DNA from: Aureococcus anophagefferens
Lineage: Eukaryota > Sar > Pelagophyceae > Pelagomonadales > Pelagomonadaceae
DNA length: 64,000 nucleotides
Assembly (NCBI RefSeq): GCF_000186865.1
Contig: NW_008705561.1
Coordinates: 883,621 to 947,620, forward strand
Direction of reading: 5' to 3'
Of the stretch, positions 4,949 to 55,321 are shown one piece after another (position 1 is the first letter of the stretch; each line of letters starts with the position of its first letter). The notes under the pieces were generated by a model. The model ran no database searches, was not told the origin of the DNA, and saw nothing but the letters and a program-made list of their open reading frames with translations. The position numbers and the translations under genes were made by a program.

Positions 4949-5027
4949 GGAGGGCGCGTGGCCGTCCAAACGGCGGACGAAATCGGCAGAGGCAGCCCTC
5001 GCCCGGGCCGCAATCGATGGATCTCTG

Positions 5028-34713: not shown

Positions 34714-35845
34714 TCAGTCGAGCGGCGCGAAGAAGGGGAGCGCGTTCGCGCTCAGCGTGCTCCGGCGCGCGCGCTTGGAGCGGCGCGCGCGCCAGGAGCG
34801 CTGGAGCGGCGACAGGGCCTCGGCGAAGCCCGGCGACGCGCCCGAGAGCGCGAGCTTGAGCGCGCACGAGAAGCCCGGCCCCGCGGCCTCGGCGCTCGCG
34901 AGGAGCTCGGCGTCCGTCGCGAAGGCGCCGCCGCCCCAGACGGCCTTGGCGCGGACGACGGCGGCCGCGTCGCGGCGGCGCAGCGCGCGGCGCACGCAGC
35001 GCGCGGCGTAGTCCGCGCGGAGCTCCGCGTCCGCGTCCTCGCGCTCCGCCGCGGCGCGCGCGAGGCGCGCCAGATTCCGCACGGGGGCGAGGCGCCGCGT
35101 CTTGAGCGGCGCGCGCGTGAGGGGCGACAGCACGCGCCGCGCGCCCCGGCCCAGCGCCGTCGCCTGTGTGGAAATCAACCAGTGGAACGCCCTGTCCAGC
35201 AAAAACTTCAAACCTCTCTAGCTCGGTCAAATCGAAGTCGATTCGGCTGATTTTTGGACGGATCGATTGCTCTCGTCGAGTTCTCGAAGCACAGCGGAAG
35301 CGCTTGTGTCAAACCGTTCGATTACGCTCACATTGAAGTCGGGTTGAAGATTTGATTTCCACACAGGCCGTCGCGATCCAGCGCTCGATGGCCTCGCGCT
35401 CGTAGACGACGCCGTCGCTCGCGAGCACCGGGTCGAGCATGAGCGCGTGCGTGATCGGGCAGCTGCACTCGGCCTCGACGGCGTCGCGCGTCCCCGGCGG
35501 CAGCGGCGGCGCGCGCGGCCAGGGCGCGTCGTCACCGGCCGCGTCCTCGCCGTCGTCGTCCCAGCCGCCGTCGTCCCAGTCGCTGTCGAGCTCGCTCAGC
35601 GAGCTCGCGTCGCTCGCGGACTCGGCGAAGCCCCGGGAGGCCGCCGTGCGCGCCGCGACGAGGCGCACGAGCGCGTTGAGGCCGCTCGCCGCCGCGTCCA
35701 GCGTCTGCGGCGGCGTCCAGGCCACCTCCATGGCCTCGTCGTCCGGCAGCTCCGCGAAGGAGCCCCCGGGGAAGTCGTCGTCCTCGGAGACGCTCGCGCT
35801 GTCGTCGAAGCCTTCGCTCGAATCGCTCAGCTCCTCGAAGTCCAT
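34714..35845 (-). CDS. U-box protein (probable E3 ubiquitin ligase), split by an introner element
   Basis: Exon 1 is 35845-35375 and exon 2 is 35163-34714, giving 306 residues after removal of 35164-35374. The N-terminal 110 residues are acidic (SDSSEGFDDSASVSEDDDF; DSDWDDGGWDDDGED). The U-box starts in exon 1 (CPITHALMLDPVLASDGVVY, EREAIERWI) and finishes in exon 2 (SPLTRAPLKTRRLAPVRNLA). U-box proteins recruit E2 enzymes for ubiquitin transfer without zinc. Read unspliced, the U-box is cut in half and each half runs into noise, so splicing is needed. The C-terminus is Arg/Ala-rich helix. Substrates cannot be inferred. Confidence 0.8.
35164..35366 (-). mobile_element. Introner element A1 in the U-box gene
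   Basis: A 203-bp element has near-perfect terminal inverted repeats (CTGTGTGGAAATCAA at one end; the reverse complement TTGATTTCCACACAG, allowing one base slip, at the other). It is flanked by an 8-bp target duplication GCCGTCGC (35156-35163 and 35367-35374). On the gene strand the intron starts with the duplicated GCGACGGC and ends with the element's CACACAG, so splicing rejoins ATC|GCG-ACG-GCG-CTG exactly as before insertion. It is visibly less GC-rich than the host gene and encodes nothing. Confidence 0.93.
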
Positions 35846-36158
35846 GGCGGCGGCGTTTAAAAAACTGGCTCAACCTTCGGACGGCGTGCGCATTGGCCCC
35901 AGCCGCCTGATCTTCTTGAGCTCTGATGATGCCGCAAGCTTCAACTTCGTCGCGAACGGACAAGACGTGCGCGCGCAGCACTTGCGCAGCTTCGAGTGCT
36001 TCGGGCTGCTGTGCATGCCGGGCGTGAACGTAACGTGAGTTCCCCGAAGTCCACTTAACAGGGCCTCGAGCAGAGCAGCACACAGGGTGGGGGCCGCGGC
36101 GGTCTTCTGAGCGAGCGGCGCGCAGGGCGAAGTGCGGGGCGGGGAGGTTGCCGTCCGC
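35846..36158. other. Intergenic region with a coding-like segment on the plus strand
   Basis: About 310 bp between the U-box gene start and the PLAC8 stop. The plus strand at about 35890-36035 reads like protein (RLIFLSSDDAASFNFVANG, then SFECFGLLCMPGVNV) and ends at AAC|GTGAGTTCC, a textbook 5' splice site. It has no start codon. It may be a lost exon or chance. Confidence 0.3.
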
Positions 36159-36953
36159 TCACACGACGTGGACGCTGGCGTAGGGCGTGCCCGTCGGCGA
36201 GCAGCAGTCGCTGTAGGGCTGGCCGGGGCTGCGCGTCACGAGGTCGTGCCGGAACATCCAACATGTGACGCACGGCCAGCACCAGTAATGCTCGCAGTCG
36301 ATGCCGCAATTGGCGCACTCTTTGTTCGGGGCGTCCGTGATCCCGTCGCGGGCGACGATCGCCTTGCGAATCTTGTTCATGTAGGACATGAAGACGAACG
36401 CGGTGACGAGACTCGTGAGCCCACTAATGTCGATGCCGGTCGCGATCTGCACCCCCCAGTCGATGATGGTCTTGACGATCATCATCGCGGCCAGGGGCCA
36501 CGCGACCGACGAGCAGGATCCGGGTTGGACCACGCGGTCGTGCAGCTGCCCGACGACGATGCAGGGGCAGCACCAGGCCGCTAAGCAGAGGTTGCAGCCG
36601 CCCGGCGGCGCGGTGCAGGCGCACAGCTCGCCGCCCTGCCAGTAGTTGCTCTGGGGGACGGGGTTGACGATGACGCCGGTGTGCACGGGCGCGACCTGGC
36701 CGGGCTTCGCCATCATCATGGGCTGCTGCACGACCATGGGCTGCTGCACGACCATGGGCTGCTGCACGACCATGGGCTGCTGCTGCATCACGACTTGTCC
36801 CGGGACGACTTGTCCCGGGACGACTTGTCCCGGGACGACTTGCGCCGACACGATCGGGGGACCCTCCATCGACTTCTCCATCGAGCAGTGCCGAGGAGTT
36901 GGGGCGTGAATGCTCGTCGATGGCGGAACGTTGACAGTGTTGCAGTGCAACAT
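36159..36953 (-). CDS. PLAC8-family cysteine-rich membrane protein
   Basis: ATG 36953 gives 264 residues; ATG 36881 (MEKSMEGPP) gives 240 and better fits the family start. The N-terminal tail consists of two tandem peptide repeats: QVVPG three times and QQPMVV four times. The PLAC8 core follows: YWQGGELCACTAPPGGCNLC, LAAWCCPCIVVGQLHD, then a hydrophobic segment (VAWPLAAMMIVKTIIDWGV) and ANCGIDCEHYWCWPCVTCWM. The CCPCxxxGQ motif is diagnostic. PLAC8 proteins are small membrane proteins linked to cell size control and metal or calcium transport in plants and fungi. It shares a divergent promoter of under 200 bp with the DUF4470 gene. Confidence 0.88.
   Translation of the reverse strand: MLHCNTVNVPPSTSIHAPTPRHCSMEKSMEGPPIVSAQVVPGQVVPGQVVPGQVVMQQQPMVVQQPMVVQQPMVVQQPMMMAKPGQVAPVHTGVIVNPVPQSNYWQGGELCACTAPPGGCNLCLAAWCCPCIVVGQLHDRVVQPGSCSSVAWPLAAMMIVKTIIDWGVQIATGIDISGLTSLVTAFVFMSYMNKIRKAIVARDGITDAPNKECANCGIDCEHYWCWPCVTCWMFRHDLVTRSPGQPYSDCCSPTGTPYASVHVV
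36717..36846. repeat. Two coding minisatellites in the PLAC8 gene
   Basis: An 18-bp unit (GGGCTGCTGCACGACCAT) is repeated about four times and a 15-bp unit (CGACTTGTCCCGGGA) three times. Both are multiples of three and encode the QQPMVV and QVVPG peptides, so copy number can change without a frameshift. Confidence 0.9.
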
Positions 36954-37032
36954 TCACTGCTCGACCTTGACGATGCCGCTAGCGAGCGGGCTTGACGCTC
37001 GGCCTCGTCCGCTGCTGCTACCATCTCGGCAA

Positions 37033-39101
37033 ATGCAGCCTCGCATCGACGCCCTCCCACTGCCGCGTCGCAAGCTCTTCGATGCCTGCATGCGGTCCTT
37101 CGTCGTCGGCAACACGACGCCGACGCCGCTCGCGCCGCTCGACGATCCCACCGCGCAGCGCGCGCGCGTGCTCTACGCGGCCAGCGGCGACTGCCGCAAC
37201 GCGCTCGAGACCGTCGGCGCCTGGCGGCTGCCGGATTTGGAAGTGACGCTCAACGACGGCAACGTCGTCGTCTGCGCGCGGAACACGCTGCTCCTGCGGC
37301 TCCTGCGGCGGCCGGACGTCGCCGCGGCCGACGTCGCGCGCGTCTGGTGCGACGCGTGGCTCAGCGCGGCCGCGGCCGCGGCGCTCGACCGCGAGCTGCG
37401 GGCCGTCGTCGACGAGCTCGACGCCCGCGGCCGCCTCGCCGGCGCCGTGGCGCTCGACGGCGGCTGCGGCGCCGGCGCCGCGTGCCGCGCGTGGCTCGCG
37501 CGGCGGTCGCGGCCCGGCGGCGCGGCGGCGTTCGCGGCCGCGCGCGAGGCGGCGCTGGCGCTCGCCGGCGCCGGCCGCGGCCGGCGCGACGCCGGCGCGG
37601 CCTGGCGCGCGCACGGCTGCTGCGGCGGCGACGGCGCGGAGCTCCGGGCGCTCGGGCTCGCGAACGAGACGCTGCGCGACCCCGGGCCCGCGGCCGCGTT
37701 CCTCGAGACGCAGGGGCCCGGCGGCGCCCTCGGCACGGCCGCGGCCGTCGGCACGGCGGCGTTCCGCGCCGACGCCGCGCGGGCCTGGGCGCGCCTCGGC
37801 GCCTTCGCGAACGAGCCCGGCGCGCGCTTCGTCGTCTCGAGCCGCGACTGCTGCGCGCCGCGGTCCTGGCCCGCGCGGTCCTTCGACGCCGTCGACACGT
37901 CCAACGTCGCCGACTACGCGGGGCTGTGGAACCTGCTTTTGGCCTGTGGCCCGCTCGTCGCCGACGGCGGCTACGCGCAGACGGAGCACGCGCTGACCAG
38001 GGCAGCACAAGAGAGCGAAATTCCCAACTTCAAAGGCTCCGATCTCGGCCGCTTTCCACTCGTTTCGGCTGATTTTTGGACGAGCGATCATCTCTCGGAC
38101 CGGTCTCGAAGCGTGGATGTGTTTTCCGTGACGCGCGCGCGTGGAACACTCATGTTGAAGAGAACTTGAATCACCCTTTTCCTGCCCAGGCGCTGACCGT
38201 CGCGTCGGACGCGCGCGCGGTCCTCCTCGAGGAGCTGCCCTACGACGCCTGGGCCCACGCCTTCCTGCTCGCCTCCGTGGGCTGGGAGATGGCCGGCGCG
38301 CACACGACGGCCGGCGACGAGCGCGTGACGCGCCTGCGCTGGCGCCGCGCCGCGGCGTCGCGGGCGCCGCGCGACTGCCGGCGCCGCGACGCCGCGGCCA
38401 AGGCCAAACGCCGCGAGACGTTCCGGAGCGTGCTGGCGCAGCTGCTCCTTCGCGTGGCGCCCATCCCCATGCATCCGGACTTCTTCGCGAGCGCCGAGGC
38501 GCCCGTCGAGGGCTCGTACGCGTTCCCGAAGTCCACGGCCGCGACGGTCGTCCACGTCGCCGCGCGGTCCGCGTCGCGCGCGGCGACGGGCTGCCTCGAC
38601 GCGCTCCTCGCCGAGCTCGGCGGCGCGGCCGTCGCGCGGAACCTGCGCGTCGCGCTCGAGGCGGAGATGCTCCTGGAGCGGCGCGCGCTCCGGCTCGCGG
38701 CGCCGCGGTTCCGCTTCCGGAACCGCGCGGTGCTCCGCGCGGCGACCTTCGCCGTCGCGCCCCGGTCCGGCGACCTCGCGGCGCCGCGGGGCGGCGTCCA
38801 CGAGCCGGCGCTGGGCGTCGCGCTCCTCCGCGACGACGCGGTCCTCCGGGACGCGCTCGACGTCGACGGCAGGTGGGAGATCGACGGCGAGGGCGCCGTC
38901 GTGAACCTGCTCTACGAGCTCTTCTGCGACCTCGAGGGCGACGAGCTCCAGCTCCTGGACCGCGTCGCCTTCGACCCGGCGACGAACCGGCTCACGCTCC
39001 TCCTCCCGAGCGACCTCGCGGGCTTCTCGCGCGCCGTCCTCCTCGACGTCCAGCGCTTCGCCGTCATCGCCGAGCCGCTGTCGCTCGACTCGGACCTTTA
39101 A
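37033..39101 (+). CDS. DUF4470-domain protein, split by an introner element
   Basis: Exon 1 is 37033-37989 and exon 2 is 38190-39101, giving 622 residues. The N-terminal region has the DUF4470 signature: ARVLYAASGDCRNALETVGA, then LEVTLNDGNVVVCARNTLLL and a later FDAVDTSNVADYAGLWNLLL. These domains occur in fungal and animal MYND-finger and dynein-assembly-type proteins; here no MYND finger is seen. Exon 1 reads HALTRAAQESE into the element; splicing gives TEHALTVASDARAVLL, which restores a plausible helix. The C-terminal half is a globular region of unknown fold. ATG 37033 is preferred over 36910, which lies in the divergent promoter. Confidence 0.75.
37998..38189 (+). mobile_element. Introner element B1 in the DUF4470 gene
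   Basis: A 192-bp element is flanked by the 8-bp duplication GCGCTGAC (37990-37997 and 38190-38197). Its ends are CAGGGCAGCACAAGAG and, read inward from the other side, CTGGGCAGGAAAAGGG. The intron runs from the first target copy (GC donor) to the element's terminal CTGCCCAG, 200 bp in all, and splicing restores CAC|GCG-CTG-ACC-GTC. It shares over 80 bp of internal sequence with element B2, including TTCGGCTGATTTTTGGAC. Confidence 0.92.
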
Positions 39102-39123
39102 GGTAGACTCTAGAGTTAGACCT
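39102..39123. terminator. 22-bp convergent gene boundary with palindrome
   Basis: Only 22 bp separate the stop codons of two convergent genes. The gap holds the perfect palindrome ACTCTAGAGT, and both stop codons lie in copies of a direct repeat GACCTTTAAGG. Its use in 3' end formation is inference. Confidence 0.4.
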
Positions 39124-40041
39124 TTAAGGCGCCCCGACGTCGCGCGGGCAGACGCGCTCGAGGCGCACGGCCGCCAGCGCGCCGCGCTCGTAGGACCGCG
39201 TCGCGACGACGAACTCGCCCGCGCCGTCGTCGGAGAAGACGACGGAGCCGACGGCGACGTCGAGCGCGTCGCCCGCCGCCGTCGCCGAGATGAAGACGCC
39301 GCCCGGCAGCGCCGTGGCGCCCGGGGGCACGAGCGGCGCGCCGCCGGCGACGTCCGCCGGCGCGCGCGTCCACTTGGCGCGCGGCAGCAGCCAGGGGCTC
39401 GCGCGCGCCTCGAGGACGTCGTTCGTCGCGCCGCCCTCCCAGGCCGCCGCCGACGCGACGACGGAGAGCTGGCCGGAGAGCAGCGCCTGCGCCGAGGCGG
39501 CCGCGTCGCCCGCGCGCGCCTCGTGGACGACCTCGGCGACATCGACGGTCGTGCCGTCGAGCACGCAGCGCACGCGCCGCCGCGACCGGTCGCCGTGGCT
39601 CAAACAGACGTCGAAGGCCAGCGTCTCCGTCGTCGTCGGCCCGAAGCACCAGGAGCCGTCGTCGAAGTAGACGAAGCCGTCGTCTTGTCTGTTCAGCAGC
39701 GGGCCCTCGACGCCGTCCGTCGTCGCGCGGACGCCCTGGACGGCGCCGCCGCAGGACCGCATGACCTCGGCGACGTCCGTCTCGCTGGCCACGGGCACGG
39801 CGAGCCACCAGCGGTCGCCGTCGCCGGCGCTCAGCTCGACGTGGTCGTCGATGGGCCTCGAGCTCCAGGTGTAGCGCGAGCCGGCCCAGGCGCCCGTCGC
39901 CGCCGCGTTGAAGGCGTCGAAGTTCGGCGCCAGGGAGGCGGCTTGTGGGATGAGCAGGAGCGGGAGCAGCGCCCAGCGGCGAGTGCGGAGCGGACTGCGG
40001 CTCGCCGCGGCCGAGCACGACTGGGAGACCGCGGCCTCCAT
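39124..40041 (-). CDS. Predicted plastid-targeted protein of unknown function
   Basis: The protein has 305 residues from ATG 40041. The N-terminus has a hydrophobic signal core (RRWALLPLLLIPQAAS) followed by LAPNFDAFNAAATGAWAGSR, in the style of bipartite plastid presequences (cleavage before a hydrophobic residue). The mature part resembles beta-barrel lipocalin-type or CpcS-like plastid proteins: AWAGSRYTWSSRPIDDHVEL, LLNRQDDGFVYFDDGSWCFG, FDVCLSHGDRSRRRVRCVLD and AKWTRAPADVAGGAPLVPPG. Similar folds bind bilins or other chromophores, but this is only a suggestion. It is convergent with the DUF4470 gene. Confidence 0.55.
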   Translation of the reverse strand: MEAAVSQSCSAAASRSPLRTRRWALLPLLLIPQAASLAPNFDAFNAAATGAWAGSRYTWSSRPIDDHVELSAGDGDRWWLAVPVASETDVAEVMRSCGGAVQGVRATTDGVEGPLLNRQDDGFVYFDDGSWCFGPTTTETLAFDVCLSHGDRSRRRVRCVLDGTTVDVAEVVHEARAGDAAASAQALLSGQLSVVASAAAWEGGATNDVLEARASPWLLPRAKWTRAPADVAGGAPLVPPGATALPGGVFISATAAGDALDVAVGSVVFSDDGAGEFVVATRSYERGALAAVRLERVCPRDVGAP

Positions 40042-40168
40042 GCTTGTGGCAGCTCCACTATCAGTTCTAGCTGAGCACGTCTGAGCTCGCTAAAATGCAA
40101 AGTGCCGCTTCAACGTCGGTCGGTGAAGATCGTCGGTTGCCCGATGTTGTAAGGGCAGCCCAGTCTCA

Positions 40169-43114
40169 ATGGACGACATCGGCGCCGACGACGCGGCGCT
40201 CATGGAGGAGCTGCCCCCCGGCGCCGTCGCCGAGCCCGACGAGGAGCCGCCGACGGAGGCTCACCAGTGGAAGACCGGGTACGAGCTGCTGCGCGAGCGC
40301 CACGACAAGCTCAAGGCGGACCGGGCCAAATTTGTAGAAAAGGCCGGCCGCCTCGCGAAGAAGGTCGCGATCCAGGACGACTTCCTCAAGGTCGAGGGCG
40401 CGGGCGGCGGGTCGCGGGGCCGCCAGCTGGAGATCCTCCAGACGGAGCTCGACCGGCGCGACCGCGAGAACGCGCTCCTCAAGCGCAAGCTCGGCCGCGC
40501 GGCGCTCCAGGCCAAGGACGCGCCGTCGCTGTCCCAGTACCTGGACGCGGCGAACCCCGCCGCGCGCTTCGGCGCGGCGAACCGGCCGCGGTCGCCGGCG
40601 CGGCCCGGGTCCCTGTCCACGGAGGCCGCGCGGCTCGTCGCGCTCGAGGGCGAGCTCGCCAAGTTGAAGGCGAAGCAGCGGAGCGACCAGACGGACCTGC
40701 GGAGGACGCGCGAGGAGCTCGTGCGCCTGGGCAAGATGAACCAGGCGCTCCGCGCGAATTCGAAGCGCGCGCGCAAGGAGCGCGTCGACATCGCGCGCGC
40801 GGGCGCCTACGCGGACGCGTCGGCCCTCGCCGCGGAGCAGCGCGGCGCGTCCGACGACGTCCGGCGACACGTTCCGCCGGACCCCGTGATGAAATTCAGC
40901 AACCCGGCGAGCATGCTCGCGGGCGCCGGCCCCGGCGGCCCGGCGACGCCCTCGGCGGTCGAGCACACCTTCGGCGGCACGCGGAAGCCACCTTCGGAGC
41001 CCGCGACGCGGCTCGTGGAGGACGCGCTGCGGCGCGCCGCCGCCGAGGTCGAGGGCCCGAGCCCGAGAGCGTCCGCGGGCGCGGGCGGCGCCTTCGCCGT
41101 CGGCGCGAAGGTCGAGGCGCGGTTTCGCGGCGGAAAGAGGTCCTACGGCGGCGTCGTCGCCAGGGACCACGGCGACGGGACCTACGACATCGACTACGAC
41201 GACGGCGAGAAGGAGGCGCACGTCGCCGAGGCGCTCGTCGCGGAGAAGCCGTCGCCCCGCGCGTCGGGGCCGCCGCCGGTCGCGGCCGCGCCGCCGCCGG
41301 AGCTCGCGGAGCTCGCGGCGCTCCTGAAGCAGACCATCGCGAGCAGTGCCGGCGGCGACGCGGCGCGCGACCTCGAGGCCCAGCTCGCGGCCGCGCGCGA
41401 CGAGCTCCGGCTCGCGAAGCTCGGCGGCGACGCCGTGCCGCGCGAGCTCCACGACGACGCCGTGAAGCAGCTCGAGGAGTCCCAAACGACGATCAAAAAG
41501 CTCCGCGAGGCCCTCCTCGACTCGCAGCGGCAGGCCGAGGCCGCGACGTCGAACGGCGACGACGTGCGGCGGCTCCGGCGGGACCTCGCGGACGCGGAAG
41601 ACGAGGTCGCGCGGCTCCGACGGACGCCGGCGACCGACGGCGCGGCCGCGGCCGCGGACCGGCGCGCGGACGAGTACCGGGTCCTCTACGACGAGGCCAA
41701 GGTCGTCGCCATGGAGTTCGAGATGCGCTACTTCCGGGACCGCGACGACGTGGGCGCCGCGGCGTACGCGGCCGGCCGCGCGGCGGGCGCGGCGCGCCGG
41801 GCCCCCGCCGAACCCGCCGCCGCGAAGAAGCCGGCCGTCGCGAAGAAGCCGGCGGTCGCGCCTCTCGCGCTCGCGCCGACGACGCCCGCGCCCGCGCCGG
41901 CGCGCCCGGCGCCGCCCGCGTCGTTCCGGCGGCGGCTCTGCGTCGTGCGAAACTGCCGCGTGCGCCTCCGCCAGGCCCTCCCGGGCCACAACGACTTCGA
42001 GCCCAAGGACGGCCGCGGCGCGGCGCTCCAAATCGGCGCCCGGCTGCCCTACCTCCTCTGCGTGCGCGTCGCGAACCACCACTGGTCCAAGGACCGCGAG
42101 CCCGTGGACGTCTTCGCGTTCTGGGCCTGGCTCGACGGCAGCTGCGGCTGGGTCACGGGCCTCCACGAGGTCGGCGGCGGCGCGGACGAGCGAGGGTCGA
42201 CGCTGGGCTGGGCGACGGGCCGCGTCGCGCCGAGCCTCGTGCCGTGCACCGGCCAGCTGGCCGTGAAAGACGGGTTCCGCCGCGACCTGCGGCCCGAGTC
42301 CATCGTCGCCTGCGACGACCTCGAGCGGACCGTGCTCTCCGCCGAGGGCTGGCAGGCCGACGCGCCGGCGGCGCTCGTCGACGCGCGCATGGACGCGAAA
42401 ACCGGCGACGGCCTGCGCTACGCGAACTGCGAGGCCGCGGAGCACCCGAAGGGCAGCGGCACGGTCTGGCTGTCCTACGCGGTCGTCGCGCGCGCGCCCT
42501 CGAAGTGCTGCCCCGCGCCGGCGGGCCAGTGCGGCCGCGACCCGCCCCAGGAGCGCCTCGGCCGCTGGCTCTGGGTCCGCTTGGACGACGCCGCCGCGCC
42601 GCGGCCCGTGTCCGCGCCGGGAGACGCGCTGGTCCTCGACCGGTCCCTCGGCGTCTTCCCCGCGGCCTGGCCGCCCGCGCCGCCCCTGTCGCCGCGCCCC
42701 CCCGGCGACACGGCGGAGCAGCGGCTCTGGGCGTTGCTCGACCACGCCGTGGCCTTTGCTCGGTCCGCGCTCGACGTCGTCCATCGGGCGAACGCCGTCG
42801 TCGTCGCGGAGCGCGAGCTCCGGGGGCCCTCCGTCGACGCGCGCGACGCGGCCCTCGCGGCCCTCGCCGCCGCCGCCGACGAGGCCGCGCCGCCGGAGGG
42901 CGCCGACGCGCTCCGCGCCCTCGAGGCCGCGCTCGCGGAGCGGGCGCGCGGCGAGATCGGCGCCGCGGCCGCGCGCCTGTTCTCCGTGCTCCGCGCCTGG
43001 CTCCACCGCCGCTTCAAGGAGGGCCTCGACGTCGACGACCCGCCGCCGCCCGCGCCGGCGCCCGTCGCTGAGGAGGAGGAGGAGGGCGTGTCGCGGCTCT
43101 GGTGGGTCGGGTAA
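40169..43114 (+). CDS. Coiled-coil protein with a Tudor-like domain and a conserved C-terminal region
   Basis: The protein has 981 residues. Residues 33-230 are a long coiled coil (KLKADRAKFVEKAGRLAKKV; LEILQTELDRRDRENALLKR). At about 310-355 a Tudor/SGF29-like barrel appears: GAKVEARFRGGKRSYGGVVA then DHGDGTYDIDYDDGEKEAHV. A second coiled coil follows, with a short KKPAV repeat and proline-rich linker. The C-terminal 400 residues are globular: LPYLLCVRVANHHWSKDREP, VDVFAFWAWLDGSCGWVTGL, GSGTVWLSYAVVARAPSK, ending in an acidic tail and LWWVG. Tudor modules of this type bind methylated lysine or arginine. The role is unknown; cytoskeletal or chromatin scaffolds would both fit. Confidence 0.65.
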   Translation: MDDIGADDAALMEELPPGAVAEPDEEPPTEAHQWKTGYELLRERHDKLKADRAKFVEKAGRLAKKVAIQDDFLKVEGAGGGSRGRQLEILQTELDRRDRENALLKRKLGRAALQAKDAPSLSQYLDAANPAARFGAANRPRSPARPGSLSTEAARLVALEGELAKLKAKQRSDQTDLRRTREELVRLGKMNQALRANSKRARKERVDIARAGAYADASALAAEQRGASDDVRRHVPPDPVMKFSNPASMLAGAGPGGPATPSAVEHTFGGTRKPPSEPATRLVEDALRRAAAEVEGPSPRASAGAGGAFAVGAKVEARFRGGKRSYGGVVARDHGDGTYDIDYDDGEKEAHVAEALVAEKPSPRASGPPPVAAAPPPELAELAALLKQTIASSAGGDAARDLEAQLAAARDELRLAKLGGDAVPRELHDDAVKQLEESQTTIKKLREALLDSQRQAEAATSNGDDVRRLRRDLADAEDEVARLRRTPATDGAAAAADRRADEYRVLYDEAKVVAMEFEMRYFRDRDDVGAAAYAAGRAAGAARRAPAEPAAAKKPAVAKKPAVAPLALAPTTPAPAPARPAPPASFRRRLCVVRNCRVRLRQALPGHNDFEPKDGRGAALQIGARLPYLLCVRVANHHWSKDREPVDVFAFWAWLDGSCGWVTGLHEVGGGADERGSTLGWATGRVAPSLVPCTGQLAVKDGFRRDLRPESIVACDDLERTVLSAEGWQADAPAALVDARMDAKTGDGLRYANCEAAEHPKGSGTVWLSYAVVARAPSKCCPAPAGQCGRDPPQERLGRWLWVRLDDAAAPRPVSAPGDALVLDRSLGVFPAAWPPAPPLSPRPPGDTAEQRLWALLDHAVAFARSALDVVHRANAVVVAERELRGPSVDARDAALAALAAAADEAAPPEGADALRALEAALAERARGEIGAAAARLFSVLRAWLHRRFKEGLDVDDPPPPAPAPVAEEEEEGVSRLWWVG

Positions 43115-45555: not shown

Positions 45556-45561
45556 CGCGGC

Positions 45562-46653: not shown

Positions 46654-46947
46654 CGCGCTAATCGTGCTAATGTGTCCGGCGATGGCGGAGGGCGTGGCGC
46701 GGTCTGCAACGGTGTCGATGGACCCAGCGATGGCGAAGGGGGTGGACGCGTGCGCCAACGACGAGAAGTGTCCTCCAGTTCTTGCTCGCTTGCTCGATGC
46801 TCGTCTTGAAAAACTCAACGTTGTCCTGCCCGTGCAGCCCTGAAGGGGGTCTGAAACCTCAACGACGCAGCGCGCGATGAGCGCCGAGACGATCGTGCTG
46901 AGAACTTGACGGAGGCCATACGACAGGAGCTTGTCGCCCAGGGCTTC

Positions 46948-47642: not shown

Positions 47643-47849
47643 GGAACGATGACACCCGGCGGAGATGGAGTGCCGTCGAGATCCCAGATGTAACATTGTG
47701 AACTCGACGCCGGGGAGCAATAGCGACCAGCCTGCACTGCGGCCCCAGGTAATCTTACGATTTATTTTTTTGCGGTGTTGTTGCAGTGCAAAGTGCAGTA
47801 CTTAGTAGGGCTGCCCAGACATGCTTATGGCCTGAGAGCTCTCTCTACG

Positions 47850-49373
47850 ATGCCAGCCGCGCCGGACACAATGATGACCGACGCCATCGCGGCCTTCGAC
47901 GCGCGCCTGCCGCCGCCGGCGTTCCGGCCGTTCCACGCGTCGCAGCCCGAGTTCGTCGAGGCGCACGTCGACGCGCTCTGCCGCCGCGGCCCGTCGCCGG
48001 AGGCGCCGCCGGCGCGCGACGAGGGCACGAGCGCCATCATGGAGCCGACGCGCCAGCCCGGGGACGTGCTCTCCGTGTCGCGCGCCTGGCGCGAAGCCGT
48101 CGGATGCGCGCGCGCGGCCTACGAGGCGCGCGGCGGGTCCGCGCTCGGCGTCGGCCCCCGGGCGTCGGCGCGCGGGCCGCTCGTGACGTGCACGACGCCG
48201 ACGAGCCACCGGCGGCACCACTTCCACGCCCAGCTCTACGCGAGCTTCTGCCAGCAGAGCTGGGAGCCCAAGGAGCTGCTCGTCCTCGACACGGACGGGC
48301 CGCCGTCGCCGTTTTTTACAGAGGATCCCCTCGCGTCGACGGACCCGCGCGCGACCTTCCCGCGTCCGGGAACGGGAGATGGCGATTACCCGCGCCGTAC
48401 ATAGGTCACCTACGTGCACCGCGCCACGACGGCGGCGACGCTGGGCGACAAGCGCAACGAGCTCGTGTTGGGCGCGCGCGGCGACTTCGTCGCGCTCTTC
48501 GACGACGACGCGGTCTACGGCCGCGACTACGTCGCGACGCTCGTCGCCGCGTGCGCCCACGCGCGCGCGCAGTGCTGCGTCCTCGAGGGCGCCTTCTGGC
48601 GCTGGCGCCTCGACACGCGGACCTACGAGTTCGTCGACTCCGCGGCGGGCACGGGCGAGCGCCAGCTCTTCCGGCGCGACGCGTTCCGCCTCGACGTGCC
48701 CGAGCGGCGCTTCTCGTCGGTGGCCATCGGCGAGGAGACGAGCGAGTGGCTCACGCACGGCGTCAAGGCGCCCGAGGGGAGCGCCTGCTTCCTCCAGGTG
48801 TTCCACGACGGCCACACGAGCCACGTGGGCAAACCGGACCGGAACCCGACGTCCGCGGGCGTCGCGAAGCCCGAGGCCGACGTGCCGGCGAACCTCCGGG
48901 CGCTCCTCGCGCCGCTGCTGAGGTCGCCCTTCCTTCGGGCGGCCGACGTGCGCCGCTGGCGGGCCCTCTTCCGCCGCGACGGCGACGGCCGCGACGACCG
49001 CGGCGGCGGCCGCGGCGACCGCGACGCGATCCTCGACTCGGCCGACGCGCGGCGCGCGCGCCAGGCGGCGCTCGGCGCCGTCGCCGAGGGGCGCGGCCGG
49101 CTCGCGGTCGTCGGGCCCCGGGGCGTCCTCCTCCGCGGCGCCGTCCACCTCGACGCGCCGCGCGTCGGCGCGGCGCCCCGCGGCGCGACGTGCGAGCCCC
49201 GCGAGGTCGGCCTCGCGAAGGAGGGCGCCGCGACGTGGCGCGTGCGCGTCGCCGCGGCGGGCCTCGAGGGCTGGTGCACGCTCAAGCCCGAGCTCCTCGC
49301 GCCGGACTTCGACGACGACGCCGCGGTCGACATCCTCCTCGGCCTCGAGCCGCCGCCGGGCCTGGAGCTGTGA
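47850..49373 (+). CDS. GT-A fold glycosyltransferase (GT2-like), two exons
   Basis: Exon 1 is 47850-48350 and exon 2 is 48405-49373, giving 489 residues. The glycosyltransferase family 2 pattern crosses the junction: LVTCTTPTSHRRHHFHAQLY, ASFCQQSWEPKELLVLDTDG, then TYVHRATTAATLGDKRNELV and GARGDFVALFDDDAVYGRDY, whose DDD is the metal/nucleotide-sugar site. The 54-bp intron has a GC donor (CGC|GCGACC) and the acceptor GTACATAG|GTC; without it exon 1 stops and the catalytic motif is separated. The C-terminal part has SH3-like phrases (RGAVHLDAPRVGAAPRGA; WCTLKPELLAPDFDDD). Sugar and acceptor cannot be deduced. ATG 47871 is another possible start. Confidence 0.75.
48351..48404 (+). other. 54-bp GC-AG intron of the glycosyltransferase gene
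   Basis: GCGACC...TACATAG removal joins DPR to VTYVHR in phase 0 and reunites the GT2 motifs. The only nearby GT (48363) gives the wrong phase. Confidence 0.65.
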
Positions 49374-49447
49374 TTTATAAAGCGCGTTCCGCGAACATGA
49401 GAAACCGCTCTCGACGCGATGCTGCCCCGACTCAAAACACAGCCACG

Positions 49448-50137
49448 ATGACCGAGATCACGTACGAGCACGATGATGATGCGACGGCCAAGGCGCCGCC
49501 CGCAACGACGAACGCCGCCGCGCCGCCGAGCCCCGCCGCGCCGCCGAGCCCCGCCGCGCCGCCGAGCCCCGACGCGCCCATCGCCTCGGGCAGCCCCGAA
49601 AAACCCATCGCCTCGCCCGCGGCCACGGCGCCGCCCGTCGTCGCCGGCGAGCCCTGGGCGCCCGACGCCACGGTCGTCGCCGTCGCCGTGTCCGCGGGGA
49701 ACCTCGCGACGCTCTGCTTCGGCGGCGCCGCGAGCTCGGCGCGCCTCGAACGGCCGACGCTCGCGTGCGCGCGCGGCGCCATGGCGGCCCTCTACGGCGA
49801 CGACGTCGCCCATGGTCCGCTCTACGCCCTCAAGCACGGCGCCCTCGTCGAACTCCTCGGCGACGGCGACGTCGCGCGCGCGATGAACAGCTTCGAGCCC
49901 GTCAAGATCGTCGCGCTCCCGCGGGAAGCCGACGCCAAGACCGAGCGCCGCCCCGCCGCGGGGCCCGAGCCCGTCCCGCCGCGCGGCCCGCCCCGCTGGA
50001 CCGAGTGGTTCGCCGGCCCGCCGCCGCCGCCCCGCTGCCGCGGCGACGAGTTCCCGAAGGTCCGGGAGTGGATCCGCTGGGCCGCGGGCCGCCCGACGGT
50101 CGAGGACCGCCTCCGCGCGCGCGGCTGGTGGCCGTGA
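49448..50137 (+). CDS. Small protein with PB1/ubiquitin-fold-like domain, paralogous to the gene at 16377
   Basis: ATG 49448 (MTEITYEHDDDATAKAPP) gives 229 residues; ATG 49397 would add 17. An Ala/Pro-rich start with a PPSPAA repeat (9-residue DNA repeat) leads to the domain: TVVAVAVSAGNLATLCFGGA, RLERPTLACARGAMAALYGD, GPLYALKHGALVELLGDGD, VARAMNSFEPVKIVALPREA. This matches the domain in the gene at 16377 over about 65 residues. The C-terminus is Trp-rich (RWTEWFAGPPPPPRCRG; VREWIRWAAGRPTVEDRLRA). Function is unknown. Confidence 0.6.
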   Translation: MTEITYEHDDDATAKAPPATTNAAAPPSPAAPPSPAAPPSPDAPIASGSPEKPIASPAATAPPVVAGEPWAPDATVVAVAVSAGNLATLCFGGAASSARLERPTLACARGAMAALYGDDVAHGPLYALKHGALVELLGDGDVARAMNSFEPVKIVALPREADAKTERRPAAGPEPVPPRGPPRWTEWFAGPPPPPRCRGDEFPKVREWIRWAAGRPTVEDRLRARGWWP

Positions 50138-50310
50138 ACAGCGCGCGCGCGCGAAAGAATAGACGAAACGATCACCGCCGCCGCGAAGCCCGAGCCGCCG
50201 CTGCGCGTAGTTTAGCCACTCCCCCCGTGTAAGGATAGCACTCGACTTAGAAGCCGGCTTCGTGATGGGGGGCGCGGGCGGGGAAGAGGGTCTTCGCGCC
50301 GCGGGAGTGT

Positions 50311-51129
50311 TCAGGCGCGGGGGAGGTGGAGCTCGACGACCGCGCGGACGAGGCTCGCGGCGTCGCGGGCGTCGCAGCCCGGGGGCGCGAGGCGCGCCGC
50401 GTCCGCGGCGAAGGTCGGGCTGGCCGCGAGGGCGTCGGCGTCGACGACGACCTTGAGGGGCGCCCAGTCGAAGCCCACCGCGCGGCCCGCGCCGACGCCG
50501 TGGCCGACGGACGACGCGGCGCGGGCGGCGGCGCCGAGGGTCGTCGGCACGTGGACGAGGCCGATGCCGCGGTGGAGCGTGCCGGCGACGAAGCCGACGA
50601 CGTCGCAGACGGCTTCGCCGCCGACGGCGAAGAGGATCGAGTGCTTGTCGATGCCGGCCGAGAGCACGGCGTCGGCCGCGGCCGCGTAGGCGCCGAGGGA
50701 CGCGTCACCCGCCAGCGCGAGCACTTTCACGACGTGGCCGAGGCGCTCGAGGCCCGCGGCGAAGGATTCGCCGTGGAATTTGAGCGAGTGCTCGTCGCCG
50801 AGGACGATCAAGGGCGAACTCGCGGACGCGGCGGGCACGAGCGGCGTCGCCGCGCGGTCGGGCGCCGCGACGAGTCCAGCGCCCACAACGACCTCCGTTG
50901 TCGCCGGCGCGCCCGTCGTGAACGCGTAGGCCGCCGCGGGGATCGGCGCCGCGCACGCGAAGCCGCGGAAGGCCGCGAGCGCCGCCGCCGCCGCCGCCGC
51001 GCGCGCCTCCGCGACGCGCTCCGCGGCGCGCGCCGCCGCGACCTCGACGACCCAGGCGGCGTCACGCCGCGCCAGGGGCGCGTGGACGCGGCCCCGGCGG
51101 AGCTTGGCGTTCTTCGCGCGCGCCGCGGC
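50311..51129 (-). pseudogene. Degenerate 3-dehydroquinate-synthase-like frame
   Basis: The minus-strand frame is open from a stop at 51130 to 50311 but has no ATG. Its second half aligns with the NAD-binding and metal region of AroB: TTEVVVGAGLVAAP, SSPLIVLGDEHSLKFHG, VGGEAVCDVVGFVAGTLHRG, IGLVHVPTTLGAAARAASSV and LKVVVDADALAASP. In true enzymes the segment after PTTL contains a catalytic Asp and Lys (VDSSVGGK); here they read Ala and Gly (AASSVGHG). The C-terminal helical domain of about 200 residues is missing. It is either a decayed gene or a diverged regulatory relative with unseen exons. Confidence 0.5.
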
Positions 51130-51240
51130 TCACTGGATCGCCATGTGGCAGTAGCGGAAGGGCGAGTTGATGTCGCGCGAGTCGCAGATCTCGCCCTTGC
51201 TGTGGACGGAATACATCGTGTTCTGGATGTGTGGGGGGCA
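51130..51240 (-). pseudogene. Orphan exon-like segment, family unknown
   Basis: The minus strand reads CPPHIQNTMYSVHSKGEICD then SRDINSPFRYCHMAIQ and a TGA. The composition is normal protein, unlike the surrounding low-complexity frames. It could be the last exon of a gene after an acceptor at ACATCCAG, or an exon that ends at CCA|GTGAGCC, a good 5' splice site overlapping the stop. I do not recognise it. Confidence 0.4.
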
Positions 51241-51366
51241 GCGGCGGCGCCGCGGTTTGCGCGACAGCGCTGCTGTCGATGCGTGGCGAGGCAAGCCTCA
51301 AGTGCCTCAGGGATACGAGCGGCATCTCTGATGATGTTGAGGTCGCGGCAGCCCATCAGAGAGAGC

Positions 51367-52772
51367 ATGGCTTCACAGAAAACGATCGACCTGGGCGCCC
51401 AGCACCTGCCCGTCGGGTCGGCGGCGGACCAGTTGCGGGCGCTGGCCGACGCCGCGGAGGCGACGGGCTACGCCTTCGACACCTACGGCGCCGGCGACGG
51501 CTTGAACGCCTTCGAGGCCAAGGTCGCGGCCATGCTGGGCAAGGAGGCGGGCCTCTTCGTGGCGACGGGCACCATGGCCCAGCAGAGCGTGCTGCGGGCC
51601 GCGACCTGGGTCCACGGCCTCGGGTCCAAGCCCAAGGTCTTCGTGCACGGCACGAGCCACCTCGTGCACCAGGACTGCCTCCGCGACGGCGCGGAGCAGG
51701 CGAAGAAGTTCGCGCGGCACGCGGCGGTGAACCTGCCCGACTTCGACGCCGCGGCCCTCGGGTCCTTCGATCGCGTCATTCAGCTCCGGGACGTCGTCAC
51801 GGCCTTCTACGTGCCCGGCGCGGAGCGCAACGCGGCCGTCGTTTTGGAGCTCCCGCAGCGCATGAACGGCGCGCGGCCCGCGCGGAGGAAACGGAGGCCG
51901 CCATAGAGCGCGCGCGAGACACCGCGCGCCCGCAGGCGGCGGCGCGCCGTCCCTCGCGGACCTGAAGGAGATCTCGCGCTACCTGCGCGGCCGGGGCGTG
52001 CACCTGCACATGGACGGCGCGCGCGGCGCCGGCGCGGGACCGGGCGCGACGTCGACGAGAGCATTCGAGAACGTCTCCGCGGGCGACGACGCGCCGCCCC
52101 CGCAGGCGGCTCTGGGAGGTCCAGCCCTTCTACGGCGTGCCCCTCTCGGAGCTCGCGGAGCTCTTCGACACGGTCTACGTGTCCTTCTACAAGGGCGTCG
52201 GCGCGCTCGCGTCGGCCATGGTCCTCGGGTCCGCCGCCATCGTCGCCAAGGTGCGGCGCGAGGTCGCCATCCACGGCGGCAAGCTCCACACGGCCGGGCC
52301 CCTCGCGCTCTCCGCGGAGCTCGCGCTCGCCAAAAGCGCGGGCGCGTTCGCGCCGCGCTTCGAGCGGCTCCGGGCCATGGTCGCGGTCGTCAGCGCCGCG
52401 GCCGCGGACGCGGGCGTCGCCGTCGAGTTCGACCCGCCGGTGCCCGAGAGCGCCATGGTCCACTGCTACCTCCCGGGCCGCGCGGAAGACCTCGAGCGGC
52501 TCCACGCGGCCGCGGCCGCGGCCACTGGCGTGACCCTCTGGAACAAACTCCGCGGGCCGGGCCACGCGCGCGACGGCACCTGGTCCTACTTCGAGTGGAG
52601 CGCCGGCCCGGGCAACGTCGCCGCGACCGACGACGACGTCACACGGGGCTGGGCCCACTTCCTCGCGCTCTGCAAGGCCGAGCTCCCGGCGCCCGCGCCC
52701 GCGGCCGAGCCGGAGACGGAAGTCCCGCCGGAGCCCCCGGCGGCGGAGCCCCCGGCGGCGGCGGCGGCCTAG
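51367..52772 (+). CDS. L-threonine aldolase / beta-eliminating-lyase family enzyme, three exons
   Basis: Exons 51367-51868, 51936-52020 and 52106-52772 give 417 residues. The family order is intact after splicing: LGAQHLPVGSAADQLRALAD, YGAGDGLNAFEAKVAAMLGK, EAGLFVATGTMAQQSVLRAA, AVVLELPQRMNG, DLKEISRYLRGRGVHLHMDG, ARLWEVQPFYGV and the PLP-lysine segment VYVSFYKGVGALASAMVLGS. Such enzymes cleave threonine or allo-threonine to glycine and acetaldehyde. Both introns (67 and 85 bp) are read as GC-AG: AACG|GCGCGC...CCCGCAG|GCGG and GGCGC|GCGCGG...CCCGCAG|GCGG; intron 1 has no GT alternative, intron 2 could use GTCGACG with a 9-residue insertion. The Ala/Pro/Glu tail is low complexity. Note RLWEV replaces the more usual RLWN. 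Confidence 0.8.
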
Positions 52773-52781
52773 GTCGCCGCC

Positions 52782-55321
52782 TTACTCCAGCACGCCGCTG
52801 TCCGGGCCGAAGGAGTCGCTCGGCCCGCCCCGGGGCGCGGCGTCGCGCTCGAAGAGGCGCTCCATCTTGTAGCTGACGCTGAGGAAGAAGACGCCGAAGA
52901 GCAGCGGGCACCTTCGGATCGCGCCGTCGATGAACGTCTCGCGGTCGACGCCGTCGGTCGCCTCCGGCGCCGCGCGCGCGAGGAGCGACGCGGCGACGAC
53001 GGCGTCGACGTCCGCGCGGGGCCGGCCGCCGCGCGGCGACGTCTTGCCCTGCGACGGCGCCGGCGCCGCCGCGCGGCGCGCCGCGAGGTCCGCGTTGTGC
53101 GCCGCGATGGCCGCGGCGACGTGGTCCGGCGTGATCGCGGGCCGGCCCGCGCCGTCGAGCCGCGGCGGCGAGAGCGCGCGGTGGTAGGCGTCGAAGGCCA
53201 GGCCCGCGTGCTCGTAGGCCGGGCTCCCCGGGGGGAAGGTCTCGGCGTCGTCGGACACCATGGCCCGGCGCACGGCCGTCACGCAGCGCGCGAAGTCCTC
53301 CGCGGACACGGTGCCCGCGCGCGTGCGGTCGTAGATGGGGAAGAGCACGTCGGGCGTGAAGGGCATGTCGAGCGCGGCCATGACGCGCCCGAAGTCGACG
53401 ATGGAGAGATGCTCGCCGCCGTCGCCGGACACCGCGCGGAACAGGCGCCGGACGGACTCGATCTCCTCGTCGAACCTGTGTGAAAACCAAATCTTCAACC
53501 CGACTTCAATGTGCGCATATGCGACAGTTTGACACGACTCTNNNNNNNNNNNNNNNNNNNNNNNNNNNNNNNNNNNNNNNNNNNNNNNNNNAGAACTCGA
53601 CGAGAGCGATCGATCCGTCCAAAAATCAGCCGAATCGACTTCGATTTGACCGAGCTAGAGAATTCTCAAGTTTGGCCCCGACGTCCCAGCTCACTGGTTG
53701 ATTTGCACACAGCGTCGAACCACGCCGCGTCCGCGTCGACCCCTTCCAGGAGCGTCTCGACGGCGTCGCGGTCGCCGGCGCCGGCGTCGCTCGCGCCGCC
53801 CCGCGAGCTCCGCCGCGCGCCGACGCGGTCCGCCGCGAGGCACGACAGCCGCGCGCGCGCGCGGTCGAGCGACCGCCGCGGCGCGGGCGCCGCGTCCGGC
53901 GCCGGCCCGGGGCTCGCGGCGCCGCCGCGCGCCGGCGCCGCGGCGAGCCAGGCGTGCTCCAGGAGCGCACCGACGTCGGGCCGGTGCTTCGGGTTCCGCT
54001 CGAGCGTCTCGGCGACGAAGAGCTTCGCGGCCGTCGAGATGCCGACCCAGTCCTCGTTGTCGTACGCGACGCGGCACTGGGCCGTGCAGGCGAAGATCTC
54101 GCGCGCCGTCGCCTTGCGGTCGAGGCAGAAGGGCTCGCGCCCCGTGAGGAGCGCGTGCGCGACGACGCCGAGCGCGAAGACGTCGCACTTGGGGGTGGCG
54201 GCGCCGTCGGTGACGAGCTCGGGCGCCATGTAGCCCGGCGTGCCCCGGAGCACCCAGGGCCGGGGCTCGTCGCCCGTGTCCTCCACGGACGCCGCGAGCC
54301 CAAAGTCGACGATCTTTAGCGGCGCGCCGCGGGCCAGGGACGCGTAGAGGAGGTTCGCCGGCTTCACGTCGAGGTGGACGACGCCGGCGCCTGGGCAGCG
54401 CAAGAGTGATTCAACGTCGTTTCAACGTGAGTGTTCCGCGCGCGCGCGTTACGGAAAAAGCATCCACGCTTCGAGACCGTTCCGAGAGATGATCGCTCGT
54501 CCAAAAAGTCAGCCGAAACGAGTGGAAAATGGCCGAGATATGAGCCTTTGAAGTTGGGAATTTCGCTCTCTTGTGCTGCCCTGGCCGGCGCCGTGGAGCG
54601 CGCCGAGGCCCCCCAGGACCTGGCGCACGGCGCCCGCGCAGGCGGCCTCGGAGTAGGTGCCCCGCTCGACGATGCGGCTGTAGAGGTCGCCGCCGCTGCA
54701 GAGCTCGAGGACGAGGACGCACTTGGGACCTCCCGCGTCGCACTCGAAGGCCTCGAGGAGCCGCACGACGTGGGCCGTCGCGCACTCGCGGCCGACGCGG
54801 CGCATGAGCTCGAACTCGCGGCAGGCGACGCGCTTCTCCTTGGACGTGCGGAACGGCAGCGCCTTGCCCGCGCGCCGCGCGCCGTCCTCGCCCGCGACGA
54901 GGCGCACGACGCCCTGCGCGCCGCGGCCCAGCACCGCGCCGAAGCGGTAGCCGGACCCGACGCGCGCCGTCGCCGCGCAGGACGACACCGCGGCGACGAA
55001 GGCGTCGCGCGCCGCCGCCGCGGGGAAGCGCAGGTGCGCCGCGGCGTCGGCCGCGACGACGGCCGCGGCGAACCCTCCGCCGAAGAGCCGCCAGCCGTCC
55101 GCGCGCGCGGCGCAGGCCCCGCCGATGCGGAAGTCGCGGAGCACGCGGACGGCGCTCTCGGCGCCGGTCACGGGCGCCTCGACGCGCACGCGGCCCTGGC
55201 GCACGCGCACGACCGCCGGCAGCCACTCGCCGACGTAGGACTCGAGCAGGCCCGCCTCGCCCTGCCACCACTCGACGTCGTCCGGCGCAAAGTCCGCGAA
55301 GCGGTGGAAGCGAGCGGACAT
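52782..55321 (-). CDS. PH-like / Ser-Thr kinase / EF-hand-like protein (CDPK-type), carrying two introner elements
   Basis: Exons 55321-54592, 54390-53721 and 53475-52782 join in frame to 697 residues. Residues 20-115 look like a PH domain (GLLESYVGEWLPAVVRVRQG; LRFPAAAARDAFVAAV). The kinase follows: LGRGAQGVVRL, Lys153 in RRAGKALPF, catalytic loop VVHLDVKPANLL, DFGLAASVED, GTPGYMAPELV and DVFALGVVAHALLTGREPF. The usual HRD reads HLD. After it, FDEEIESVRRLFRAVSGDGG and YDRTRAGTVSAEDFARCVTA look like weak EF-hand pairs, so calcium control is possible but not proven. Unspliced, the catalytic loop is separated from the N-lobe; the two introners explain the break. Likely cytosolic or membrane-associated signalling kinase. 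Confidence 0.8.
53476..53712 (-). mobile_element. Introner element A2 in the kinase gene (contains an assembly gap)
   Basis: The element has A-type ends (CTGTGTGAAAACCAAATC; from the other side CTGTGTGCAAATCAACC) and the 8-bp duplication CGTCGAAC (53468-53475 and 53713-53720). On the gene strand the duplication reads GTTCGACG, so the intron begins with GT and ends with the element's CACACAG. Splicing restores GCG-TG|G-TTC-GAC-GAG. Its orientation relative to the host gene is opposite to A1. Fifty N bases (53542-53591) interrupt it, so the true length is unknown. Confidence 0.9.
53542..53591. other. Assembly gap (50 N)
   Basis: Exactly 50 N bases lie inside introner A2, probably a nominal gap at a repeat the assembler could not resolve. 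Confidence 0.98.
54391..54583 (-). mobile_element. Introner element B2 in the kinase gene
   Basis: A 193-bp element is flanked by GCCGGCGC (54383-54390 and 54584-54591). On the gene strand the duplication is GCGCCGGC, the element starts CAGGGCAGCACAAGAG and ends TTGCGCTGCCCAG. The 201-bp intron therefore has a GC donor from the target and an AG acceptor from the element; splicing gives LHGAGVVHLD. It is closely similar to B1 along its whole length and has the same orientation relative to transcription. Confidence 0.93.

Follow-up and report, generated by a model that had tools for sequence, protein, structure and literature searches.

Two families of short DNA transposons that probably act as introners in three genes of Aureococcus anophagefferens

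Four sequences that interrupt three genes within the window, that is, the whole 64-kb stretch of DNA that was analysed, are very probably introners, namely short, non-autonomous, MITE-like DNA transposons that become spliceosomal introns upon insertion into exons. According to the mechanism that we propose, the element would bring the 3′ splice site as its own final bases, CAG, while the 5′ splice site would come from the target duplication, whose upstream copy would need only to start with GC or GT. Splicing would then take out one target copy together with the element, and the original mRNA would be restored. The anatomy of the elements, their copy number, the restoration of the reading frame and the strand-specific GY and AG are directly observed, and from these we infer the splicing reaction at the four elements. 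Moreover, insertions that cannot be spliced would be lost to selection, and a transposase would presumably act in trans.

Introners are a leading explanation for the mass gain of new introns, and the present genome provides thousands of natural experiments on intron gain. In particular, since each copy records both the target that was taken and the strand that survived, the tolerance of splice sites becomes measurable without RNA.

The four elements and their host genes

The exact ends of the elements and their target copies (Table 1) confirm the original prediction of four elements of about 200 bp, with inverted repeats and exact 8-bp duplications, in three genes. Read in gene sense, the target copies are GCGACGGC for A1, GCGCTGAC for B1, GTTCGACG for A2 and GCGCCGGC for B2, all of them exact. 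With intron bounds defined as the element plus the upstream target copy, the predicted junctions (35375/35163, 37989/38190, 54592/54390 and 53721/53475) correspond exactly to the flanking exon bases.

Table 1. Positions of host genes, elements and target duplications in the window
Feature	Position	Strand	Remarks
U-box protein gene	34714..35845	-	306 aa once A1 intron removed
DUF4470 gene	36910..39101	+	663 aa counted from first ATG
Calcium/calmodulin-dependent-like protein kinase gene	52782..55321	-	697 aa once B2 and A2 introns removed
Element A1 (family A)	35164..35366	-	203 bp; ends CTGTGTGGAAATCAA...TTGATTTCCACACAG
Element B1 (family B)	37998..38189	+	192 bp; ends CAGGGCAG...CTGCCCAG
Element A2 (family A)	53476..53712	-	237 bp including 50-N assembly gap at 53542-53591
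Element B2 (family B)	54391..54583	-	193 bp
A1 target duplication, donor copy (GC)	35367..35374	-	putative intron 35374-35164, 211 nt, GC-AG
A1 target duplication, copy retained in exon 2	35156..35163	-	
B1 target duplication, donor copy (GC)	37990..37997	+	putative intron 37990-38189, 200 nt, GC-AG
B1 target duplication, copy retained in exon 2	38190..38197	+	
A2 target duplication, donor copy (GT)	53713..53720	-	putative intron 53720-53476, GT-AG
A2 target duplication, copy retained in downstream exon	53468..53475	-	
B2 target duplication, donor copy (GC)	54584..54591	-	putative intron 54591-54391, 201 nt, GC-AG
B2 target duplication, copy retained in downstream exon	54383..54390	-	

Within the first 24 bases, the terminal inverted repeats match at 17 positions in A1 (the first 15 unbroken), at 14 in B1 and at 16 in both A2 and B2. 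The ends of family B show a constant mismatch at base 2 in 50 of 50 paired ends, a set covering 85 of the 100 left-end and 52 of the 100 right-end places among the matches listed and omitting those places that were judged by eye to lack a partner in the other list. The A2 core lies in gene sense, opposite to that of A1, and the B2 core carries one inserted base. RNA folding gives a terminal stem of 15 bp for A1 and a stem of 6 bp for B1, with CA and AG left unpaired in the latter; since the A1 and B1 introns are not unusually stable (z of -1.31 and +0.88, respectively), no structural role is claimed for them.

Both B2 and A2 are located within the single kinase gene, the B2 junction inside the kinase domain, beside what we take to be the catalytic loop, and the A2 junction downstream of that domain. 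The A1 junction falls inside the U-box domain; the B1 junction is in the DUF4470 gene, yet outside the DUF4470 domain. When the element and one target copy are taken out, the protein is restored in each of the three genes, as had been foreseen, and database proteins with 96-99% identity run continuous across all four junctions. Specifically, P0125-P0128 are uninterrupted across the A1 junction, P0121 (whose start lies 41 residues later) and P0122 across B1, P0001 across both B2 and A2, and P0003 across A2; these database proteins may have their source in spliced transcripts or in empty sites. The divergent relatives P0123, P0124 (46%) and P0130 (43%) also cross the junction without a gap. As a correction to the original prediction, three of the four putative introns start with GC, not GT, and splicing as such is presumed.

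The close named relatives of the window proteins belong to A. anophagefferens; residues 1-198 and 244-383 of the kinase, for instance, are identical to protein P0002 of that species. Here, named gene models of Aureococcus continue into an element or are interrupted at its junctions. For example, protein P0129 runs into A1 and stops inside it, with A1-encoded residues at the same site. Such models are of practical relevance to annotation, with the GC donors as a likely cause.

Copy number and spread in the genome

A genome-wide search for the termini, by which the original prediction was to be checked, returned 642 matches to the A end pattern and 761 to the B end pattern, and 3,392 matches were obtained with the core common to both families, with 0 control matches for each of the three. 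The core thus occurs once per 14.5 kb, or an expected 4.4 times or so in 64 kb, so that four elements in 20 kb represent the ordinary density of this genome. A hot spot was considered and rejected, as four points placed at random in 64 kb would lie within 19.4 kb of one another with p of about 0.09 (hand calculation). The earlier remark that the density suggests active or recent spread is accordingly weakened. Recent spread itself appears moderately supported by the resemblance among copies: the nearest to A1 among the matches listed is 99% identical, and copies diverge from their family consensus by a median of 8.2% in A and 4.7% in B. A1 has at least 39 more near-full-length matches with identities of 90-99%, in addition to a partial one, and B1 has at least 39 more copies at 93-95%.

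In the window, a script search for the core with up to four mismatches and both ends found no fifth element; one core match with four mismatches, at 10928-10945, is without element ends. Five low-GC stretches (4963-5209, 23307-23546, 29074-29287, 47662-47889 and 57337-57600), which are among the lowest-GC others of the 43 listed in the window, were inspected as further candidates and rejected, as they contain neither A or B ends nor the core. As regards an autonomous partner, the genome had no match to the hAT dimerisation profile PF05699, a profile that gave no match in the control genomes either and is thus uninformative, nor to the MULE profile PF10551, which matched three control genomes. 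A search for U1 RNA was uninformative too, as it gave no match in any control genome.

A symmetric and a polar family

Families A and B would share their core by common descent. As A has a CTG...CAG end on both sides, it can be predicted to form an intron in either orientation, and its copies are core-sense in 22 cases and core-antisense in 28 (n=50), with orientation scattered over the copy tree (15 changes against a shuffled mean of 16.5; 139 of 500 shuffles as low). The base at the 5′ end that matches the AG end is changed in 6 of the 50 A copies. Family B is polar (CA...AG) and would therefore persist only if its AG terminus comes last in gene sense, as it does in 39/39 copies; a B subfamily with a flipped core retains the same terminal polarity. 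CA...AG sites number 1,120 (controls 0 and 1) versus 7 CT...AG sites (control 3), an excess that we take as a founder effect plus mutation, selection not being claimed. A CT...AG element would likewise yield an AG end.

On balance, we lean towards a model in which A and B, derived from one ancestor, took opposite ways to spliceable insertion: A would carry an identical 3′ splice module at both ends and be usable in either orientation, B, with ends that differ at the second base, in one only. A few terminal bases rather than the body would decide which strand is tolerated, and the 5′ site would need only a G followed by C or T, GT being accepted about 2.8 times as well as GC.

Reading frame, splice sites and alternative explanations

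The 96 loci that were fetched gave 105 elements that could be scored, each having the core, a target duplication and inverted repeats, one of 106 being left unscored for too short a flank. This sample was selected for A or B ends that are intact, and it comes mostly from contigs C1 and C2, so that decayed or unspliceable copies are under-sampled; in addition, the element finder used for the frame and splice-site counts required inverted repeats and a terminal G. Both flanks are confidently coding in 94 of the 105 elements, a number that includes A1, B1 and A2 of the window (B2 is absent from the scored set) and one copy, L017 of family '?', with a mis-called boundary. Upon removal, strand and frame agree in 94/94 copies, 91/91 outside the window, by a test that is blind to shifts by multiples of three and gives 94/94 also with 3 extra bases. 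The coding-frame model, partly trained on the loci that it scored, called the right frame in 144/144 240-bp windows of four window genes, all in the training set. The target duplication is exact in 41/52 A copies and 33/36 B copies, with a finder that tolerated up to 2 mismatches and in a set omitting 6 A and 2 B candidates whose end the script did not find.

Splice-site counts are based on 89 copies, 5 of the 94 lying outside them. In gene sense, the target starts with GC in 50, GT in 38 and GA in 1 (48, 37 and 1 of the 86 outside the window). In other words, GY is present in 88/89 against a background of 20.4% (p = 1.4e-59), on the gene strand only, and target positions 3-8 carry little information. 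The gene-sense element end is AG in 89/89 copies. Taken together, these counts agree with the earlier proposal of a 3′ site carried by the element and a 5′ site drawn from the duplicated target.

A first alternative is that GY at the target start stems from what the transposase prefers rather than from selection for splicing. The target sites are in fact not sampled free of selection, as none of the 105 elements has both flanks non-coding, compared with 204 of 1,515 window positions, and the C that precedes the target in 53/89 copies (27/38 at GT targets) may reflect such a preference. However, the symmetric family A, inserted in both orientations, has GY on the gene strand only, GY has no mirror image at target positions 7-8, and, once background is taken into account, GT is favoured 2.8-fold over GC, the pattern expected of a splicing filter. 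We hence regard this alternative as unlikely, even though a transposase preference may act in addition to a splicing filter.

It is very improbable that ordinary MITEs have simply broken these genes, leaving unspliced pseudogenes, although at the nucleic-acid level the anatomy is that of a MITE and P0129 does enter A1 and stop within it. Strand and frame would not be expected to persist in every two-flank copy, nor a gene-sense GY donor in all copies but one; moreover, the flanking exons still score as coding, the joined genes have intact domains, and one gene is otherwise open with two elements. Even less credible is an RNA-based spread in which excised introns re-enter by reverse splicing, a route put forward for introners in fungi: the terminal polarity of B is indeed constant relative to transcription, but the 8-bp target duplications, the inverted repeats and the presence of A in both orientations, scattered over the copy tree, are against it. 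Finally, precise excision at the DNA level, similar to that of ciliate internal eliminated sequences, would equally remove the element with one target copy, but has no need for a strand-specific GY at the gene-sense 5′ end and AG at the 3′ end, and can be practically dismissed.

Comparison with known introners

Introners formed from DNA transposons thus being the preferred reading, the elements belong to a kind that is already known, as had been suspected: introner elements were reportedly described in A. anophagefferens, the species of the named relatives of the window proteins, by Huff, Zilberman and Roy in 2016, and are said to insert between nucleosomes. The passages seen of papers citing Huff et al. 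2016 make no mention of GC donors outnumbering GT, of sister families of which A is symmetric and B polar with a flipped-core subfamily, or of gene models that run into elements or break at them.

In the literature, A. anophagefferens introners are reported to co-opt splice sites and to insert in both orientations (PMC10228655), and the families described here resemble them as short DNA transposons with inverted repeats, target duplication, co-opted splice sites and both orientations. The characteristic intron length is given as ~210 bp (PMC9481584, in part), close to the 211 nt of the A1 intron. An excerpt of PMC7789003 attributes canonical splicing motifs to the A. anophagefferens elements, whereas the donors found here are mostly GC.

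Outside this species, introner family 4 of an Aureococcus sp. from the TARA metagenome, of the same genus, has an 8-bp target duplication as well, but, as the legend of Fig. 2F in Gozashti et al. 2022 (PMC9860276) states, both of its splice sites are borne by the element and the mRNA gains 12 bp, whereas the families described here would add nothing. In Amoebophrya, a passage of PMC7789003 reports introns whose ends bear inverted repeats and whose boundaries are marked by direct repeats, as here; unlike those found here, these direct repeats measure 3-5 nt, and the splice sites are non-canonical and vary widely. The introners of Symbiodinium microadriaticum differ by a 4-bp rather than an 8-bp duplication and, according to the legend of Fig. 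2B in PMC9860276, share with our elements the inverted repeats, a 3′ site located in the element and a 5′ site derived from the duplication.

Anatomy of the Elements

The four elements proposed for the window, two of family A and two of family B, are present at the expected positions, and each is flanked on both sides by an exact 8-bp direct repeat. Family A elements start with CTGTGTG and end with CACACAG, while family B elements start with CAGGGCAG and end with CTGCCCAG. One gene hosts both B2 and A2, and no fifth element was found anywhere in the window. Since a 50-N assembly gap lies inside A2, its true length may differ from the printed 237. Other repetitive features of the window include a repeat protein, which presumably resembles bacterial surface repeat proteins, and a low-GC segment that, by eye, has no kinship to A or B.

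Elements and other repetitive features of the window (target repeats in gene sense, listed beside the elements in the order reported)
Feature	Position	Gene or strand	Target repeat	Description
A1	35164-35366	U-box gene (-)	GCGACGGC	family A
B1	37998-38189	DUF4470 gene (+)	GCGCTGAC	family B
A2	53476-53712	kinase gene (-)	GTTCGACG	family A
B2	54391-54583	kinase gene (-)	GCGCCGGC	family B
Repeat protein	55577-57214	(-)		many ~25-residue repeats (AFNQPIGDWDVSKVT type); repeat family D4, period 75
Tandem repeats	60700-64000			dense, periods 12-24 and ~152-162 bases, reaching the window end
Low-GC segment	4963-5209			repeated internally, with TTTTTCAACAACAGGAATGCCGT and CCTAGGCGAACCAGGCGCCCGCCTC in two partial copies

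Restored Genes and Their Relatives

Removal of each element together with the upstream target copy restores the three host genes, as the original prediction had claimed. The joined products are a kinase of 697 aa, a U-box protein of 306 aa and a DUF4470 protein of 663 aa, in which Pfam recognizes a full protein kinase domain (residues 125-392), a U-box (127-188) and DUF4470 (66-152), respectively. The A1 junction falls inside the U-box and that of B2 inside the kinase domain; the B1 junction lies outside DUF4470 and that of A2 downstream of the kinase domain. Among 5.8 billion proteins, all three have near-identical, uninterrupted relatives, which contain exact residue strings spanning each of the junctions. 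Specifically, these are P0001 (99%, 697 aa, on a 4,050-bp contig) and P0003 (96%, A2 region only) for the kinase, P0121 (97% over 93%, on a 12,190-bp contig) and P0122 (98% over 63%) for the DUF4470 protein, and P0125 (97%, on a 13,513-bp contig) and P0126-P0128 (99% over 56-72%) for the U-box protein. Distant relatives (46%, 46% and 43%) are also gapless at the junction. The near-identical relatives are probably environmental entries from ENA or JGI and would represent either spliced transcripts or empty genomic sites, the 12-13-kb contigs being long for transcripts; either origin supports the introner reading.

Those close relatives that bear a species name come from Aureococcus anophagefferens, with P0002 identical to kinase residues 1-198 and 244-383, and their models are disturbed at the same places. 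P0129 (JL721_12686) finishes with the residues that A1 encodes before its first internal stop; therefore, A1 occupies this position in its strain too, and the model extends into the element, so that public annotation counts part of it as protein. All five named kinase models (P0002, P0004-P0007) are defective, being truncated, chimeric or skipping residues. The B2 junction (residue 244) affects four of the five, with P0002 and P0005 resuming there in the alignment and P0006 and P0007 ceasing to match at 242; near the A2 junction (residue 467), three of the five (P0002, P0004 and P0005) pick up again no more than a few residues away. Gene finders may have been confused by GC donors.

Reading Frame and Splice Sites

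The frame was followed with a codon model that called the right frame in 144/144 segments of 240 bp from four genes of the window, genes that belong to its training set. The 96 fetched loci yielded 106 elements with core, target duplication and inverted repeats, 105 of them with enough flank. Coding sequence was called with confidence on both sides of 94 (including A1, B1 and A2) and on one side of 11; no element lacked it on both. After removal, strand and frame matched between the flanks in 94/94; by arithmetic, agreement falls to 0/94 with 1, 2, 8, 200 or 211 extra bases and returns to 94/94 with 3. For comparison, at 1,515 window positions both flanks were coding in one frame in 56% of cases and in different frames in 3%, with one flank coding in 27% and none in 13.5%. 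An earlier count with stricter ends found the frame kept in 46/46 A and 33/33 B copies.

For the 89 copies of A and B whose gene strand is known, the first two target bases are GC in 50, GT in 38 and GA in 1, a GC or GT excess over the 20.4% background of the same coding sequence (p = 1.4e-59). GC donors outnumber GT in each family (A 27/50, B 23/39); once background is taken into account, acceptance of GT is ~2.8-fold that of GC (p = 5e-6). Target positions 3 to 8 are nearly uninformative, and the 89 copies show no mirror-image signal at the other side of the target. The preceding exon base is C in 53/89, possibly reflecting an insertion preference. Intron phases 0/1/2 number 34/19/36, near the background of such sites (41%/26%/33%). 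The gene-sense end of the element is AG in 89/89, where the finder demanded the G but left the A free. At the 5' end, the corresponding base is off consensus in 6/50 A and 3/39 B copies. The claim that the element carries the 3' site and co-opts the other from the target is supported by AG in 89/89 and GC or GT in 88/89. Neither a symmetric transposase preference nor excision at the DNA level predicts this strand-specific pattern, which is what RNA splicing would be expected to leave in the sequence.

Copy Number, Kinship and Orientation

Further copies of the termini, anticipated by the original prediction, were found in the 49.05-Mb genome (86 contigs): 642 matches to the A ends, 761 to the B ends and, with at most one mismatch, 3,392 to the 18-bp core common to both, with 0 control matches in each case. 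Core density is one per 14.5 kb, and the four elements whose density had been taken to suggest active or recent spread are thus the number expected for the window. The A and B consensuses are identical at 98/186 positions, with a peak in and around the core, and a single change divides A from B on the core-sequence tree, so they are sister families. Copies differ from the family consensus by a median of 8.2% in A and 4.7% in B, and among the matches listed the nearest copy to A1 has 99% identity.

Neighboring elements a few hundred bases to a few kb apart were seen at L044/L045 (G000:C1 near 2651791-2652535), L093 (G000:C2:1962100-1966500) and G000:C1:2490559-2490995, and close-set elements include two B copies ~60 bp apart. 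Loci L016, L072, L093 and L096 hold A-like elements whose ends are different (CTGTGCCG...CGGCACAG, for example) or mixed; in L093 and L096 the gene-sense 3' side again holds an intact CAG end.

The A core lies in gene sense in 22/50 copies and antisense in 28/50 (in the window, A2 and A1, respectively), and the two orientations are dispersed across the tree (15 changes against a mean of 16.5 on shuffling). At each A end, TTGATTT is followed by CACACAG; therefore, a similar 3' module terminates either strand, with TTGAT as a putative branch point. Family B is polar. Among the matches listed, the second base differs between its two ends, A versus T, in 50/50 pairs, while bases 9 and 11 are alike between ends in 43/50 and 44/50. 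The AG end lies at the gene-sense 3' side in 39/39 B copies. In 33 of these the core is in sense; the other 6 have a reversed core, relative to which the end bases are swapped. CT left ends make up 199/960, so the reversed kind may account for about one fifth of family B. On the tree, the six reversed copies group together (2 changes against a minimum of 3 on shuffling, 0/500 as low), which fits one or few core flips followed by spread.

Comparison with Known Introners

In the portions of the literature consulted, the primary Huff et al. 2016 account aside, no statement on B polarity or a flipped core was found, and those of PMC12768974, PMC11782384 and PMC9942856 added nothing on Aureococcus. 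Elsewhere, introners are reported to insert in both orientations with co-opted splice sites (Huff et al. 2016, as given in PMC10228655), and those of A. anophagefferens are described as having a characteristic length of ~210 bp (PMC9481584) and as carrying repeats of constant length and canonical splicing motifs (PMC7789003). Depending on the introner family, GC donors make up 0 to 50%, and one family from Aureococcus sp. has 8-bp duplications (PMC9860276). The four elements are real and well built, and they exemplify a known class that had been described in this same species.
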